Assembly (NCBI RefSeq): GCF_900109365.1
Contig: NZ_FNZR01000002.1
Location: 620,001-684,000 of the forward strand
From: Parapedobacter koreensis
GTDB lineage: Bacteria; Bacteroidota; Bacteroidia; Sphingobacteriales; Sphingobacteriaceae
Direction of reading: 5' to 3'
Length of the DNA stretch: 64,000 nucleotides
In this document: positions 2,909 through 9,765 of the stretch, piece after piece
Position numbering within the stretch: the first letter of the stretch is position 1
How the letters are laid out: every line of letters starts with the position of its first letter
Made by a program: the position numbers and the translations under genes
Notes under the pieces: model-generated
Databases searched by the model: none
Seen by the model: the letters and a program-made list of their open reading frames with translations, nothing else
What the model was told of the DNA's origin: nothing

Positions 2909-3124
2909 TCAGGGTTTACGGACTGCTTCCAACTCCGGATCCCGGATTTCCAACTCCTGGCTTCGGCCTCCCGACTCCTCCATCGGCTCATCATCAAACA
3001 GTATACGCACGGAAGGTGTATACGTATCCTCATGCTGCCCGGTCTTGTTGGCCCAGAAAAAAGCGGCCAAAAAGATCAACGCAATAAACACGCTGCATCC
3101 GATAAGAAAAAATATCGCGCTCAT
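2909..3124 (-). CDS. ccoS: cbb3 oxidase maturation protein CcoS
   Basis: Small (71 aa) inner-membrane protein needed to insert haem/copper cofactors into cbb3 oxidase. One N-terminal transmembrane helix (about residues 3-25, ending FFWANKTGQHED) is followed by a short acidic domain containing the family-typical stretch YTPSVRILFDDEP. The start overlaps the ccoI stop by 4 bp (ATGA), as expected for a coupled ccoI-ccoS unit. The last ~22 residues (EESGGRSQELEIRDPELEAVRKP) are encoded by near-repetitive CCAACTCC/CCGGAT/CCCGACTCC DNA that looks like a degenerate intergenic repeat read into the frame. Confidence 0.9.
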   Translation of the reverse strand: MSAIFFLIGCSVFIALIFLAAFFWANKTGQHEDTYTPSVRILFDDEPMEESGGRSQELEIRDPELEAVRKP

Positions 3125-5532
3125 GATGGCCTATTGTTTAACTGGTTCCGGGATGCGTATATATGCGTAGCTATGGTAGTAAAGCCAATAATGGTAATGG
3201 TACTCAACGGCATTAAGACTGCGGCAAATAGTGGCGACATCGTGCCCATCACAGCAAAACTCAATCCCACGATGTTATAGGTCAACGAAATGCCAAAACT
3301 CATGCGGATGACGCGCACCGCATCTTTGGCAAACCGGAGAAAACGCGGCAACAGGGCAAACGACTTACCATCCAGTATAGCGTCGCATCCCGGGGAAAAA
3401 TTATTGATGTCATCACTTACTGCGATGCCTAAGTCTGCCCGTTTGAGTGCGCCGGCATCATTAAGCCCATCACCAAACATGCATACCTTGCTACCTGCTT
3501 GTTGTAATAGTTGGATGTATTCCAATTTTTCAGCGGGGAGTTTATTGAACAGTAAATCCGCATTCCCAGGAAAAATTTCACGAAGCCGATCTTTTTCCTT
3601 AGCATTGTCGCCCGAAATCAAGTGCAATTCATATCCCTTAGCCAATTCTCCCATGATTTCACCAAGATTTTCCCGCCAGGGTTGCTCCACAAAAAAGCAG
3701 CCCTTTGCCTTGCCATTGATGGAGATATGGATATTGCTTCCGGCGCGTAGGCCTCCTGCAGCTGACGCCCCCGTGAACGCGGCACTCCCTATACGTATCC
3801 AGTTTGAATTGACCAACGCTTCAATTCCTTTTCCTCCGATTTCGCGGTAATCCGCTACGGGCCACCTCCCGATGGATCCCGCCCATTTCACAAGTTCGCG
3901 GCTCAATGGGTGATTCGAGTTTTGGCATACCGCTGCTACCATGGCGAGCTCTTCGGCTTCTAAATTTCCTTCAAAACGCATCCGCGTGGCACTGGGCGAA
4001 GATATCGTACCGGTTTTGTCGAAAACCAAGCAATTTACCGCAGCCAGTTGCTCGATGGCCGCCGTGTTTTTTACATAGAAGCGGTTTTTATCAAAGACAC
4101 TCAGCGCCGCCGATAAGGTAAATGGCGAACTCAACGCCAGCGCGCAGGGGCAAGCAATGATTAATACCGCTGTAAAAGCCCCCCATGCCTTTGCCACGTC
4201 ATCATGCAAAAACCAGTAAGCCATCGCTGAAAAGGCAATCCCCAGGAGCACGACGGTAAAATACTGGCTGACCACATTGCTGAACGTGCGGAATCGCTTT
4301 TCATATTGCTTAAAAGCATCGTTGTTCCAAAGCTTGGTCAGGTAGCTCTGCGATACGGCTTTAACAACCTCCAGTTCGATAGCTTCACCCAACTGTCGCC
4401 CACCAGCATAAATGATTTCACCGAGTACTTTTTCCACGGGCTCAGACTCACCCGTGACGAAGCTGAAGTCTATTGCTGCCCGTCCCTTTAATAAAATGGC
4501 ATCAGCCGGAATAATCTCCTTATTTCGGATAAGGAGCCGATCCCCCATGCATATTTCCGCAATGGGTACAGGCTTTGCTCCCTCATCGCCAAGGCGTGTC
4601 ACCGCTACCGGAAAATAAGAGCGGTAATCCCGTTCAAAAGACAGGTGGTGGTACGTCCGCTGCTGTACCCACCGGCCTACCAGCAGGAAAAAAACCAACC
4701 CACAGAGCGTATCAGCAAACCCTGGCCCCGCGCCGGATAGAATCTCCCACGCGGTACGGGCGAACAACACCAAAATGCCCAACGCCAAGGGTACATCCAG
4801 ACTAAGCTGCCGTTGCCACAGGCTGTGCCATGCCGATCGGAAATAATCCCGCCCGCTGTAAAGCAATACCGGAAGCGCAAAGCTGAGATTCATCCAGCCG
4901 AAAAAAATGGAATATTTGGCTTCAAATGCCGCCATGCCGAAGTATTCGGGGAAGCTCAGCATCATCGAATTACCAAAACAAAACCCTGCAACAGCAATCT
5001 TGGCAATCAATCCCTTCTGGGAAAATTCCTGACCCGCTTTCACCACATCCTGCAAGGTAATCTTGGGTTCATACCCCACATTGGTCAGCAACTCGACCAG
5101 CGCCCGCAGGGATATATCTCCATGTTTGAAAGTGATATTCACCTGTTTTTTCAGAAAATCGCTCTGCGATAAGACAATGGCCGGATGCAGTTTATACAAA
5201 TGTTCGAGCAGCCACACGCATGAACTGCAATGGATGGACGGAACATAGAATGTCACCATGGTGATCTCGTCATTCTTGAAATCAATCAATTTATCAGCAA
5301 TGGCAGGTTCGTCCAAGTACTCATACCGATCAGCCTGGTCGTTTCGCTTTTTACCGGGGTGGGCATTATACCGGTAATATTGCTGCATGTTACTGCTGCT
5401 CAATATTTGGTATACGCTCTGGCACCCCAGACAGCAGAATGCATGTCCATCCGATTCATACACCGCATTGGGCAATGCGTCACCACAATGAAAGCATTTG
5501 GTATTTTTCGATGTTTTCGTTTCCGTATTCAT
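3121..5532 (-). CDS. ccoI: copper-translocating P-type ATPase CcoI/FixI
   Basis: P1B-type ATPase (803 aa) that moves copper for assembly of the CuB centre of cbb3 oxidase. Visible features in order: an N-terminal cysteine zinc-ribbon-like segment typical of CcoI (C13, C16, C33, C34, C37), a metal-binding HMA domain with HCSSC (101-105), membrane helices, the actuator TGES, the ion-path motif CPC (IACPCALALSSP), the phosphorylation motif DKTGTI and the hinge GDGLNDAGAL. It starts 13 bp after hemN and overlaps ccoS by 4 bp, so hemN-ccoI-ccoS form one transcription unit. Confidence 0.95.
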   Translation of the reverse strand: MNTETKTSKNTKCFHCGDALPNAVYESDGHAFCCLGCQSVYQILSSSNMQQYYRYNAHPGKKRNDQADRYEYLDEPAIADKLIDFKNDEITMVTFYVPSIHCSSCVWLLEHLYKLHPAIVLSQSDFLKKQVNITFKHGDISLRALVELLTNVGYEPKITLQDVVKAGQEFSQKGLIAKIAVAGFCFGNSMMLSFPEYFGMAAFEAKYSIFFGWMNLSFALPVLLYSGRDYFRSAWHSLWQRQLSLDVPLALGILVLFARTAWEILSGAGPGFADTLCGLVFFLLVGRWVQQRTYHHLSFERDYRSYFPVAVTRLGDEGAKPVPIAEICMGDRLLIRNKEIIPADAILLKGRAAIDFSFVTGESEPVEKVLGEIIYAGGRQLGEAIELEVVKAVSQSYLTKLWNNDAFKQYEKRFRTFSNVVSQYFTVVLLGIAFSAMAYWFLHDDVAKAWGAFTAVLIIACPCALALSSPFTLSAALSVFDKNRFYVKNTAAIEQLAAVNCLVFDKTGTISSPSATRMRFEGNLEAEELAMVAAVCQNSNHPLSRELVKWAGSIGRWPVADYREIGGKGIEALVNSNWIRIGSAAFTGASAAGGLRAGSNIHISINGKAKGCFFVEQPWRENLGEIMGELAKGYELHLISGDNAKEKDRLREIFPGNADLLFNKLPAEKLEYIQLLQQAGSKVCMFGDGLNDAGALKRADLGIAVSDDINNFSPGCDAILDGKSFALLPRFLRFAKDAVRVIRMSFGISLTYNIVGLSFAVMGTMSPLFAAVLMPLSTITIIGFTTIATHIYASRNQLNNRPS

Positions 5533-5545
5533 CCTTCACAATTGG

Positions 5546-6916
5546 TTATACAGCTTTGCTGAATAGAGGGTGCGTATAGTGTTTTGCATGCAATCGTTCA
5601 TCAAATGCCATGCAGATATTGCGTAAAAAGGAAAATCCCTTTTTCGTAACCTTCACATGCAGGCCATCCCAGGATACCAGCCCATCGGCGAATAGTGGTG
5701 CCAGCCGCCGGAGTATCGTCGCCGACTGCGCTGCCGGCACATCCAGTATCGTGGTGCCACGACACATGATGTCCAAGATACGTTTCCTTACCGATAGGTC
5801 TGCTGTCGACAATACATGTCCCTTAAAAACCGGGAGTTGGCCTGCATTCACCAATGCTTTGTATTCCTCCACGGTTTTCACATTCTGGGCAAATGCCGTC
5901 CATGAATCGCTGATGGACGATACGCCAAGTCCGATAAGCAGCGGCGTATACCGATCGGTATAACCCATGAAATTACGGTGCAGCGATCCGTCATCTGCCG
6001 CCCGGCAGAGCGCATCATTGGGCAAGGCGAAATGATCCATGCCCACATCGCGGTAGCCGGCCTGTTTAATGGCCGATTTGCCAAGGAGATAAAGCTCGAG
6101 TTTATCTCGGCCCTTCGGCAGGTCTTCTTCCGTATAACGTCGCTGGCCGGGCCTCATCCACGGCACATGCGCATAGCTATAAAACGAGATGCGGTCGGGT
6201 CGCATGGCCAGCGCTTTCTTCACCGTATCCGATACGCTTTTCAAGGTCTGTAGCGGGAGTCCATAAATCAGATCAAAATTAATGGACGTATAGCCGATTT
6301 GGCGGGCATCTTTCATGACCCGCCACACATCGGCTTCGGTCTGTCTCCGGTTGATCAACTGTTGTACCCCACTATCAAAATCCTGTATGCCCAGGCTCAG
6401 TCGCCTGAAACCTGCGTCAAATAGTAGTTGAAGATGTTCAATAGTCGTATTTGCAGGATGTGCTTCAAAGGAAAATGACGCACCCGGAAGCACGTGGTTG
6501 CCATCGAGCAAACCAGCCACCAGCCTATCGAGCTGAATCGGGCTGAAAAATGTCGGCGTCCCCCCTCCCAGGTGTATCTCACTAATGGGCAGACTATCTG
6601 CACTGAGATGGTTTCGATAGAGCTTCCATTCGGCCAATACGGCATCAATATAAGGCACTTCTACACCATGGTTTTTGGTAATGCGTGTGTTGCAACCGCA
6701 ATAGGTACATAAGCTTTCACAAAACGGAAGGTGGACATAGAGGCTGATTCCCCGTGATGAAGATTGAGCCAGTTGCAAACGGACATGATGAATCCATTTG
6801 CCTGGACTCCAAGTATTTTCATCCCAACACGGCACCGTGGGGTAGCTCGTATAACGCGGTGCAGCCACGTCATAGCGCTGGACCAATTCCAATAGCTTAT
6901 TTTTCGTTGTTTCCAT
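5546..6916 (-). CDS. hemN: oxygen-independent coproporphyrinogen III oxidase
   Basis: Radical SAM enzyme that decarboxylates coproporphyrinogen III to protoporphyrinogen IX without O2, supplying haem during oxygen limitation. The cluster motif CESLCTYCGCNT (CxxxCxxC) follows the YVHLPFC-type stretch, and GGGTPTF, the SAM-binding glycine motif, comes next. The length (about 456 aa) fits bacterial HemN. An upstream in-frame ATG at 6937 would add seven residues, but the ATG at 6916 gives the family-like start METTKNKLLELVQRYDV. Either start lies inside the end of the upstream gene, so translation is coupled. Co-location with ccoI/ccoS matches the joint anaerobic/microaerobic regulation known for these genes. 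Confidence 0.93.
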   Translation of the reverse strand: METTKNKLLELVQRYDVAAPRYTSYPTVPCWDENTWSPGKWIHHVRLQLAQSSSRGISLYVHLPFCESLCTYCGCNTRITKNHGVEVPYIDAVLAEWKLYRNHLSADSLPISEIHLGGGTPTFFSPIQLDRLVAGLLDGNHVLPGASFSFEAHPANTTIEHLQLLFDAGFRRLSLGIQDFDSGVQQLINRRQTEADVWRVMKDARQIGYTSINFDLIYGLPLQTLKSVSDTVKKALAMRPDRISFYSYAHVPWMRPGQRRYTEEDLPKGRDKLELYLLGKSAIKQAGYRDVGMDHFALPNDALCRAADDGSLHRNFMGYTDRYTPLLIGLGVSSISDSWTAFAQNVKTVEEYKALVNAGQLPVFKGHVLSTADLSVRKRILDIMCRGTTILDVPAAQSATILRRLAPLFADGLVSWDGLHVKVTKKGFSFLRNICMAFDERLHAKHYTHPLFSKAV

Positions 6917-7346
6917 ACACGTAGGGGCTATCGGCATTGTCCATTGTGCAAACCTTTTGGCAGCAACAGGCTTTGCCTACACATTTTCCAGCATCCCAAG
7001 CATTCAGGTTGCGTATCGTTTGCTTGGCGATACTTTCAATGGACTGGTCTTCGTCTGGTGCATTGGCCACTTTCAATCCCATCCGTGTAGCCTCTTTCAG
7101 GTCGATGTGTGTGGTAATTTTGGATCGGGTGATGATTTTTTTTACTCCTGCATTTTTGAGTTCCCATAGCATTTCGCGATCCAGTATGTCATACGTGGAA
7201 ACGATAACGACCTCTTTTCCGTGGGCGTAGGATACGGTCTTTACGTTCAGTTCGTTGGATATCAACGTCAAATCATGCCGCTTTCCGTTGGCAAGAGCCA
7301 AATGCTCCTTCTCCTGAGGCTTTATACTATAGGCAATTGCTTTCAT
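6897..7346 (-). CDS. D-lactate-dehydrogenase N-domain-like protein with Cys-rich tail
   Basis: Short protein (149 aa). The first ~115 residues resemble the N-terminal substrate-domain half of D-2-hydroxyacid dehydrogenases (MKAIAYSIKPQEKEHL start, then VIVSTYDILDREML and GVKKIITRSKITTHIDL). The NAD-binding Rossmann domain and the catalytic Arg/Glu/His are absent. The tail carries a cysteine cluster, C122-x4-CCC-x3-C133, that could bind metal or a cluster. An in-frame ATG at 7391 exists, but the predicted transcript start falls at about 7392, so the ATG at 7346 is preferred. It is the first gene of the hemN-ccoI-ccoS operon. Enzymatic function is unlikely; a redox or metal-sensing/chaperone role is speculation. 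Confidence 0.75.
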   Translation of the reverse strand: MKAIAYSIKPQEKEHLALANGKRHDLTLISNELNVKTVSYAHGKEVVIVSTYDILDREMLWELKNAGVKKIITRSKITTHIDLKEATRMGLKVANAPDEDQSIESIAKQTIRNLNAWDAGKCVGKACCCQKVCTMDNADSPYVYGNNEK

Positions 7347-7398
7347 CCGTCTGTCCGTGTCCGTGGGAAAATGATTTTCTGGTGTATTCATTGTCCCA

Positions 7399-7464
7399 CA
7401 AAATTACAGGAGCAGCCTATGGCAGGCGATGTGAGGGGTCAATCTAAAAAATGATAGTGATCAC
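7399..7464 (-). promoter_or_regulatory. hemN-ccoI-ccoS operon promoter with FNR-like box
   Basis: TAATTTTG (7406-7399, minus) is a perfect TAnnTTTG -7 box, with no TTG at -33. Upstream, ATGAT-AGTG-ATCAC (7451-7464) matches 8 of 10 positions of the FNR box TTGAT-N4-ATCAA and contains the perfect palindrome GTGATCAC centred at 7460.5, 61.5 bp from the -7 box end. The absent -33 element plus an FNR-like site suggests activation by a Crp/Fnr-type protein, plausibly the fusion regulator encoded just downstream at 7503-8567. Confidence 0.55.
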
Positions 7465-7502: not shown

Positions 7503-8556
<1,054 letters not shown>

Positions 8557-8567
<11 letters not shown>

Positions 8568-9765
8568 TTAGTTCCGGTATCGTATTACTGAAGGTAAGTG
8601 TAAATAGGGTACCTTTATGCTGGGCACTGTGCCAAGTCACTTGACCGCCCATCAAAGATACATATCTTTTCACAATATTAAGTCCCAAGCCCGTACCCGG
8701 GATGTTGCCGGTATTATGTGCCCGGAAAAATGGTTCGAACAAACTTTTCTGGTCTTCCTCGGGTATGCCTATTCCGTCATCTTTGATGACAATGGTACAG
8801 GTATCATCATTGATTTCCGTATTGAACTCAATGAACGTATTCTCCCCCGAATATTTTATCGCATTGGATATCAAATTGATAATACAATTTTTCAACAAAT
8901 TGGCATCGAGGTCAAATTTTCCGGTAGAGCCCGTATGCTGGTATACAATATGCTGGTTGGCCTTGCAGATCATCTGCATCTCCTCGGTGATTTCTTCGGC
9001 AAGCTGCACCAAATTTATTTCTTGTTTAGCAGCTAACACTTTGCCCGCTTCCAACCGTTCGAGCGATAAAAAATCATTTAGGATGCTGGTGAGCAACTGT
9101 ACAGAATTTTTGATCCGCCCCGTATGCTTAAGCACATTGGCTTTATCGGGTTTTTCAATGTATTTTTCAATCAGCGATGCCGACAACTGTACAGCACTCA
9201 ACGGTGTGCGAAACTCATGCGAAGCCATGGAGACAAACCTGGACTTCATCTGGTTAAGTTCCTTCTCCTTTTCCAGCGACAAGCTTACTTCGGATTTGGC
9301 CTTTTCCAGTTCAGATACCAGTTTGATCAGGTCTTTTGTACGGTTGCTGACGGTTGCTTCCAATTCCTCCATATGGTAGAGAAGCTTTTCCTCCGCTTCT
9401 TTTTCCTTGGATAAGTCATGTACAAACCCTGTAAAAGCCGTCTTATTTTCGTAATGCACCTCACTAACAGCGAGGCGGAATGGAAAGGTGCTGCCGTCTT
9501 TGCGCTTGCCTCTCACCTCACGGCCGATTCCGATGATTTTCTTATGTCCGGTCCGATGATAGTTTTCAATGTAACCATCATGATTGCTACGGTCTGGCTC
9601 GGGCATCAATATGGATATGTTTTGCCCGATGACCTCAGCAGCGTCGTATCCGAAGAGCCTCAGCGCTGCCGGATTAATAGATTCCACGGTACCATGCCAG
9701 TCAATGGTGATGATACCGTCGATCGCATTTTCAATGATTGCCTTAAGTAACTTGGCGGTATCCAT
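8557..9765 (-). CDS. FixL-like PAS sensor histidine kinase lacking the haem His
   Basis: Soluble kinase of 402 aa without membrane helices. Residues 5-125 are a PAS domain strikingly like FixL (SILMPEPDRSNHDGYI, IIGIGRE, GKRKDGSTFPF). The histidine that ligates haem in FixL, six residues before the Arg of IGIGR, is Lys76 here; the nearest His is H74. A coiled segment (130-170) leads to the HisKA box SHEFRTPLSAVQLS and an HATPase domain (DDGIGIPEED, GTGLGLNIVK). The start overlaps the ettA stop (TAATG) and the end overlaps the regulator gene. It probably senses a redox or other cytosolic cue and phosphorylates the receiver-Crp protein. Haem-based O2 sensing is not supported by the sequence. 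Confidence 0.9.

Follow-up and report, generated by a model that had tools for sequence, protein, structure and literature searches.

What does a short protein resembling D-lactate dehydrogenase (D-LDH), devoid of an NAD-binding domain, do at the head of an operon that continues with hemN? The question is raised by a 64,000-nucleotide (nt) stretch of the Parapedobacter koreensis genome (the window; contig NZ_FNZR01000002.1, positions 620,001 to 684,000), in which a protein of 149 amino acids (aa) is encoded at positions 6897 to 7346. Here, this protein and its relatives are denoted X; the forms without the NAD domain are called short, and the full-length D-LDHs are called full. Codes starting with L, G and g designate loci, genomes and genera, respectively (G000 is the P. 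koreensis genome), and f1 is the family to which X belongs.

X corresponds to the complete substrate-binding domain of D-LDH, which is discontinuous and has a flavodoxin-like fold, without the embedded NAD domain and with a cysteine tail added. The sole Pfam match in X is PF00389 (2-Hacid_dh, catalytic domain; E 4e-9), and hmmscan detects no NAD-binding domain PF02826 at E values up to 1; both PF00389 and the embedded PF02826 are found in all three full-length relatives tested. The catalytic Arg, Glu and His of 2-hydroxyacid dehydrogenases (2HADHs), which are present in 48, 51 and 50 of the 52 full forms, respectively, sit in the domain that is missing from X, and the substrate-loop Gly (RSxG), conserved in 46/52 full forms and 5/83 short forms, is replaced by Ile77. 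The initial annotation of this DNA, made without database searches, was right that X lacks the NAD-binding and catalytic residues; its reading of X as the N-terminal half-domain only is ruled out by the presence of a C-terminal segment in both the alignment and the fold match. Residues ~103-133 of X align with the C-terminal end of full-length D-LDHs, and the AlphaFold model of X (mean predicted local distance difference test score, pLDDT, of 82, dropping below 50 from residue 127, so that the tail is predicted to be unfolded) matches the Salmonella D-LDH with Z 21.6 and a root-mean-square deviation of 1.6 Å over 128 aligned residues spread over chain residues 1 to 330. In structural alignments, the model is 30-36% identical to the E. 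coli and Salmonella D-LDHs, a range that includes the engineered E. coli-like entry 8i5z (30-34%).

The short forms are under purifying selection. In a sample of 20 hand-picked close pairs, the ratio of nonsynonymous to synonymous substitution rates (dN/dS) is 0.02-0.14 for the 12 short pairs for which it was computable (14 were tried, and 2 were saturated) and 0.04-0.09 for the full pairs. Among the short forms, K22 is conserved in 81/83, T27 and N31 in 82/83 each, and K44 in 83/83; each of the four is present in 43/43 tailed full forms and absent from four canonical D-LDH-like rows of the alignment. A frameshift or assembly artefact is ruled out for X by the open reading frame (ORF), which is open and conserved in many genomes, and by the low dN/dS. 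The description of X as a repurposed scaffold has stood up well: the protein is D-LDH-derived and has neither an NAD domain nor catalytic residues, yet it is conserved. Overall, conservation suggests that the retained domain, with the usual four-Cys tail, performs a job of its own, and a second, non-catalytic function of X is considered highly probable. The conserved K, T and N residues may form a binding site for a partner or a ligand. It could be argued instead that X is a passive relic, a leader for hemN translation with an irrelevant protein sequence, given that the stop codon of X overlaps the start codon of hemN and that the catalytic parts are lost. The low dN/dS, the retention of the same residues and Cys in distant lineages and the persistence of X without hemN make this explanation very hard to believe.

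The relatives of X show how such a protein could arise. Matches to X at E<=1e-3 are present in 111 of the 151 genomes drawn from the same family, a count that includes full-length D-LDHs, some of them likely ordinary (the one in G029 was read, as L050, and those in G001, G058 and G073 resemble it by score). Many of the matches lie in frames of about 330-360 aa, and in a good number of these frames the N-terminus matches residues 1-111 of X and the C-terminus, with the Cys tail, matches residues ~101-137, the gap between the two being about 570-580 bases in the cases checked. In the loci that were read, the third slot in the order FixL-type kinase, response regulator fused to a CRP/FNR-type DNA-binding protein (RR/CRP), X, hemN is occupied by either a short or a tailed full-length protein. 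For comparison, 83 distinct short proteins of 121-166 aa and 52 distinct full ones of 320-352 aa (135 in all) were picked from hit-list loci, more densely in genera with both forms, so that the proportions are not those of a random sample. Derivation of X from D-LDH by domain loss is nearly certain.

The NAD domain was, in all likelihood, lost repeatedly. Across the 122 loci of a HemN tree, the state changes between short and full at least 11 times, with at least 8 changes forced by starred branches. The approximately unbiased (AU) test rejects one common origin for the short forms, both on HemN (p=2.6e-66) and on X itself (p=0.018); these are 'quick' trees, the tested group was examined after the tree had been seen, and long-branch rows, near-duplicates and, for X only, outgroup rows were dropped, leaving 93/135 rows for X and 81/122 for HemN. 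The junction residues at the place where the NAD domain is gone vary between clades. Repeated excision is the simplest reading because a deleted domain is unlikely to return in register; single cases of interspecies exchange of short copies may have occurred as well. Long HemN branches are seen at three loci with a short X (L058, L167 and L151), possibly reflecting a faster-evolving HemN. In addition, catalytic residues are missing from some of the full-length copies with a tail (L043, L046, L115, L132 and L133), as would be expected of intermediates on the way to excision.

One genome, G135, carries three versions: a full D-LDH without the tail that is intact at the seven positions checked (L045), a tailed full copy at hemN in which the catalytic Arg is replaced by Ser (L046), and a tailed short copy elsewhere, unlinked (L047). 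Coexistence of short and full forms in this and some other genomes (e.g., G120) would fit X being a regulatory or inhibitory subunit of full-length D-LDH. This is the least credible of the explanations considered: X finds no further match in the P. koreensis genome at E 1e-3, and it is missing the NAD domain, through which 2HADHs dimerise.

The tail itself contains Cys at residues 122, 127, 128, 129 and 133, exactly the C122-x4-CCC-x3-C133 pattern and positions initially reported, but the CCC triplet that was taken for its hallmark is not a signature, being ruled out by the poor conservation of C128 (Cys in 45/83 short and 2/52 full forms). The core consists of C122, C127, C129 and C133, which are Cys in 80, 79, 77 and 77 of the 83 short forms and in 46, 46, 44 and 45 of the 52 full forms, respectively. 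The tail is thus a feature of short and full-length forms alike at this locus, not one peculiar to the truncated form. It also appears to be a family trait. In a draw of genomes from the order, the tail profile is matched in 210/250, and all genomes shown there belong to X's own family; in the overlapping draws of 295 genomes from the class and 296 from the phylum, no match outside f1 covers the Cys tail, the three non-f1 matches (G387, G656 and G747) stopping at profile positions 18, 21 and 18 of 34, respectively. Four Cys within 12 residues, on a tail that is unfolded in the model, are conserved possible metal ligands, and the prospects that the tail holds a metal or an Fe-S cluster are about even. 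Alternatively, the four Cys could form a metal-free thiol-disulfide or persulfide switch that senses redox state and changes partner binding. The predicted lack of structure and the conservation of all four Cys are compatible with such a switch; nevertheless, it is judged unlikely, given that the cytoplasm is normally reducing and that four Cys so close together at fixed intervals (C-x4-C-x-C-x3-C) suit a metal site.

Analysis of the upstream regions reveals a promoter layout shared by 112/135 genes, in which FNR/CRP-type sites stand in tandem; this layout bears out the claim that X leads the hemN operon. The motif TGAY-N4-RTCA is found within up to 300 nt upstream in 121/135 regions, compared with about 2 expected, and TAnnTTTG, which we take to be the -7-type element recognised by the Bacteroidota sigma factor, begins exactly 45 nt past the palindrome in 110 of these 121 (in a single-base shuffle control of spacing, 6.2 are expected within 70 nt, and 115/121 are seen). 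In the 112 layout-aligned regions, a second, TGA-N6-TCA-like site follows the first at a distance of 22 nt, and its TnA and CA letters are fixed in 112/112. A scan for sigma-70-type promoters yielded nothing useful. FNR/CRP-type proteins bind TGA-N6-TCA, and the adjacent RR/CRP protein is the likely candidate regulator of the X promoter. A scan of the P. koreensis genome for one exact TGA-N6-TCA/TAnnTTTG spacing returned the X promoter and one other locus, L182 (G000:C14:406734-406798). The X ORF could also be read from an upstream ATG at 7391, but the ATG at 7346 is favoured as the start because of conservation among the relatives, which begins there, and the promoter position, the TAnnTTTG element at 7406-7399 leaving little or no leader space ahead of the upstream ATG.

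The gene neighborhood links X to hemN more tightly than to the genes of cbb3 oxidase. Among the tailed short loci, RR/CRP is directly upstream in 65/76, hemN is directly downstream in 72/76, and ccoI directly follows hemN in 30 of the 47 long enough to show it; among the tailed full loci, the corresponding numbers are 39/43, 41/43 and 0/43. Across the 151 family genomes, 104 contain both X and HemN, 7 X alone, 5 HemN alone (two of these are 76% complete) and 35 neither, which are raw counts uncorrected for kinship, with likely ordinary D-LDHs among the X matches, and in 8/8 genomes where hemN and ccoN part, five of them from one genus (g10), X sides with hemN. These numbers, with the X/hemN overlap in the window (41 nt from the hemN ORF start at 6937, or 20 nt if the second Met is counted) and only 12 discordant genomes, favour a dedicated HemN partner, in which the Cys tail would protect, load or take an electron from the HemN [4Fe-4S] cluster. 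Against it, three genomes that are each at least 99% complete (G211, G155 and G193) encode a tailed short X right after the kinase and RR/CRP and are matched by neither HemN nor ccoN; the HemN query matches 109/151 genomes in the family draw, the search for HemN absence itself held no positive genome, and the corresponding ccoN search included one positive genome, G095, which matched. Furthermore, G022 has a tailed full form without HemN, and HemN is found without X in the five genomes counted above and in 4 of the 24 genomes that were picked for lacking X or the tail. The physiological electron acceptor of HemN is unsettled. In one publication, the electron is already proposed to pass to HemN's own cluster (PMC10548856). 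A dedicated HemN partner is rather unlikely, and an obligate HemN or cbb3 partner is ruled out by the three genomes that have neither. In short, hemN is the usual but not a necessary neighbour of X.

The initial annotation leaned toward a copper or haem-iron chaperone for cbb3 oxidase acting via CcoI. The placement of ccoI after hemN in the window and in the loci given above, and of ccoN across the left end of the window, is consistent with this proposal. It is nonetheless very improbable: ccoI never directly follows hemN in the tailed full loci, G110, G128 and G147 (the last only 77% complete) contain X and HemN without a ccoN match, five g10 genomes contain ccoN without X, and G211, G155 and G193 retain X without ccoN. 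Of the suggested link to cbb3 and haem maturation, the strong hemN linkage stands, whereas the cbb3 link is weaker, and a strict haem/cbb3 role is unlikely because these last three genomes keep a short X without hemN or ccoN. Homologues scattered away from hemN/cbb3 or lacking the Cys cluster, which would have spoken against the suggestion, are not a family-wide feature; they occur as exceptions, namely, the same three genomes, L047 and seven short forms with off-motif tails.

The preferred reading, based on sequence features and genomic context, is that X is a pseudoenzyme adaptor or sensor of a low-oxygen regulon, with a Cys tail that serves as a site for a metal or an Fe-S cluster or as a redox switch; the chances for and against it are evenly poised. 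Under this scenario, the FixL-type kinase would switch the operon on at low oxygen through the RR/CRP protein. The full-length ancestor would have had two jobs, lactate fermentation, which involves the NAD domain, and a second job for which the substrate-binding domain (K22/T27/N31/K44) and the Cys tail were responsible; where fermentation was dispensable, the NAD domain would have been deleted and the second job retained. Most likely, the job would be that of an adaptor or sensor that depends on a metal (Fe-S, Zn or Cu) or on thiol/redox chemistry, the tail being an oxygen- or metal-sensitive switch that would alter how the protein binds a partner from the low-oxygen regulon; HemN and the RR/CRP protein are the two candidate partners by linkage. 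More tentatively, and with the balance somewhat against it, a lineage-specific oxygen or metal sensor could first have been built onto a working fermentation enzyme, by addition of the C-terminal Cys tail and a new surface of the substrate-binding domain. In-frame excision of the catalytic domain would then have released it several times within one family, a bifunctional protein losing its enzyme activity and retaining its role in signalling or metal handling.

Several observations weigh against this reading. A search of PDB with the tail profile found no metal site at E up to 5, with the proviso that a 34-position profile is weak; the 5 matches are a K-channel toxin (0.027), a defensin (0.65) and three aspartic-protease entries (1.3). 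The tail is off-motif in 7/83 short and 9/52 full forms, the latter including four canonical outgroups away from the locus (L050, L051, L056 and L092) and the tail-less paralogue L045. In L054, L055 and L169-L172, the short domain is found beside an RR/CRP gene with the tail changed or absent, and the tail is not indispensable because the short domain persists at the locus in this state. The palindrome is missing in 14/135 upstream regions, 11 of which belong to tailed short genes, including three from Parapedobacter (L003, L013 and L016), and 11/76 tailed short genes lack an RR/CRP gene immediately upstream. Finally, in the alignment of X itself, which is short, starred branches force 2 changes only. 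The short forms L169, L170, L171 and L172 (genus g20), which sit at this same locus, group as a clade that has retained the domain with the tail altered or lost; three of the four keep C-x-G-x-x-C and a later Cys, and the third Cys is not retained.

The features of X and its locus are collected in Table 1. The gene order is kinase, RR/CRP, X, hemN, P-type ATPase and then ccoN; the gene at 1269-2822, between the P-type ATPase and ccoN, was read as a candidate SulP-type transporter. In the PDB comparison, 'hdgy' of the kinase aligns with 'hdsy' of FixL. The kinase and RR/CRP pair resembles FixL plus FixJ and FixK in one protein, the fusion presumably corresponding to the latter two. The closest named relative of X is from Parapedobacter luteus (91% identity), and the tree tool places the named relatives in Sphingobacteriaceae.

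Table 1. Coordinates (window positions) of X, its segments, promoter elements and neighbouring genes
Feature	Position	Strand	Basis or remark
X, short NAD-domain-less D-LDH-like protein, 149 aa	6897..7346	-	ORF, conservation, promoter
X residues 1-100, N-terminal segment of substrate-binding domain, with K22, T27, N31, K44	7047..7346	-	alignment, model, fold match
X residues ~97-105, junction at missing NAD-binding domain (PF02826)	7032..7058	-	comparison with full-length relatives
X residues 103-118, C-terminal helix, homologous to full-form C-terminus	6993..7040	-	alignment, model, fold match
X residues 122-133, Cys tail; core Cys 122/127/129/133, Cys128 variable	6948..6983	-	alignment
Palindrome TGATCACTATCA, FNR/CRP-type, TGAY-N4-RTCA	7452..7463	-	upstream motif scan
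Second tandem site, degenerate here, TGACCCCTCACA; TGA-N6-TCA in most relatives	7430..7441	-	22 nt downstream of first
TAATTTTG, fits TAnnTTTG	7399..7406	-	45 nt after first palindrome
hemN, oxygen-independent coproporphyrinogen III oxidase	5546..6937	-	TIGR00538 above cut-off; overlaps 3' end of X
ccoI-like heavy-metal P-type ATPase	3121..5532	-	domain matches; name ccoI from context
Response regulator fused to CRP/FNR-type DNA-binding protein (RR/CRP)	7503..8567	-	domain matches
FixL-type haem-PAS histidine kinase	8557..9765	-	PDB FixL E 7e-34
ccoN, window left end inside gene	1-773 (G000:C18:619376-620773)	-	

The apparently independent losses, with the same leftover conserved each time, amount to a natural deletion experiment, which would locate the hidden function of these D-LDHs in the substrate-binding domain plus, mostly, the tail and not in the catalytic centre. 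A second function hidden in a textbook enzyme could thereby be tested directly with a 149-residue protein. In addition, X flags a low-oxygen operon (FixL-type kinase, RR/CRP, X, hemN) that is widespread in one family of Bacteroidota and has a sharply defined promoter. The findings also suggest that proteins which would here probably be annotated as 'lactate dehydrogenase' are not dehydrogenases.

With regard to known systems, X is a pseudoenzyme from a known enzyme family, and the repeated excision of the NAD domain together with the Cys tail is the apparently new part; among the matches listed, no description of either was found in the open-access literature, which is no proof of absence from print. 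The LdhA-type fermentative D-LDHs (PDB 5z1z, 4cuj) share the fold of the substrate-binding domain, and full-length relatives occupy the X locus itself; compared with them, X has lost the NAD domain, the catalytic residues and the loop Gly and has gained the four-Cys tail and K22/T27/N31/K44. CtBP is likewise a member of the 2HADH family that is used outside metabolism, and CtBP structures are among the fold matches of X, one of them with 'transcription corepression' in its title; CtBP keeps the NAD domain, unlike X, and no link by descent is claimed. The oxygen-responsive Cys clusters of Bacillus subtilis Fnr and of NreB, in which the spacing of Cys differs from that in X, are regulatory; X similarly combines a Cys cluster with a low-oxygen setting.

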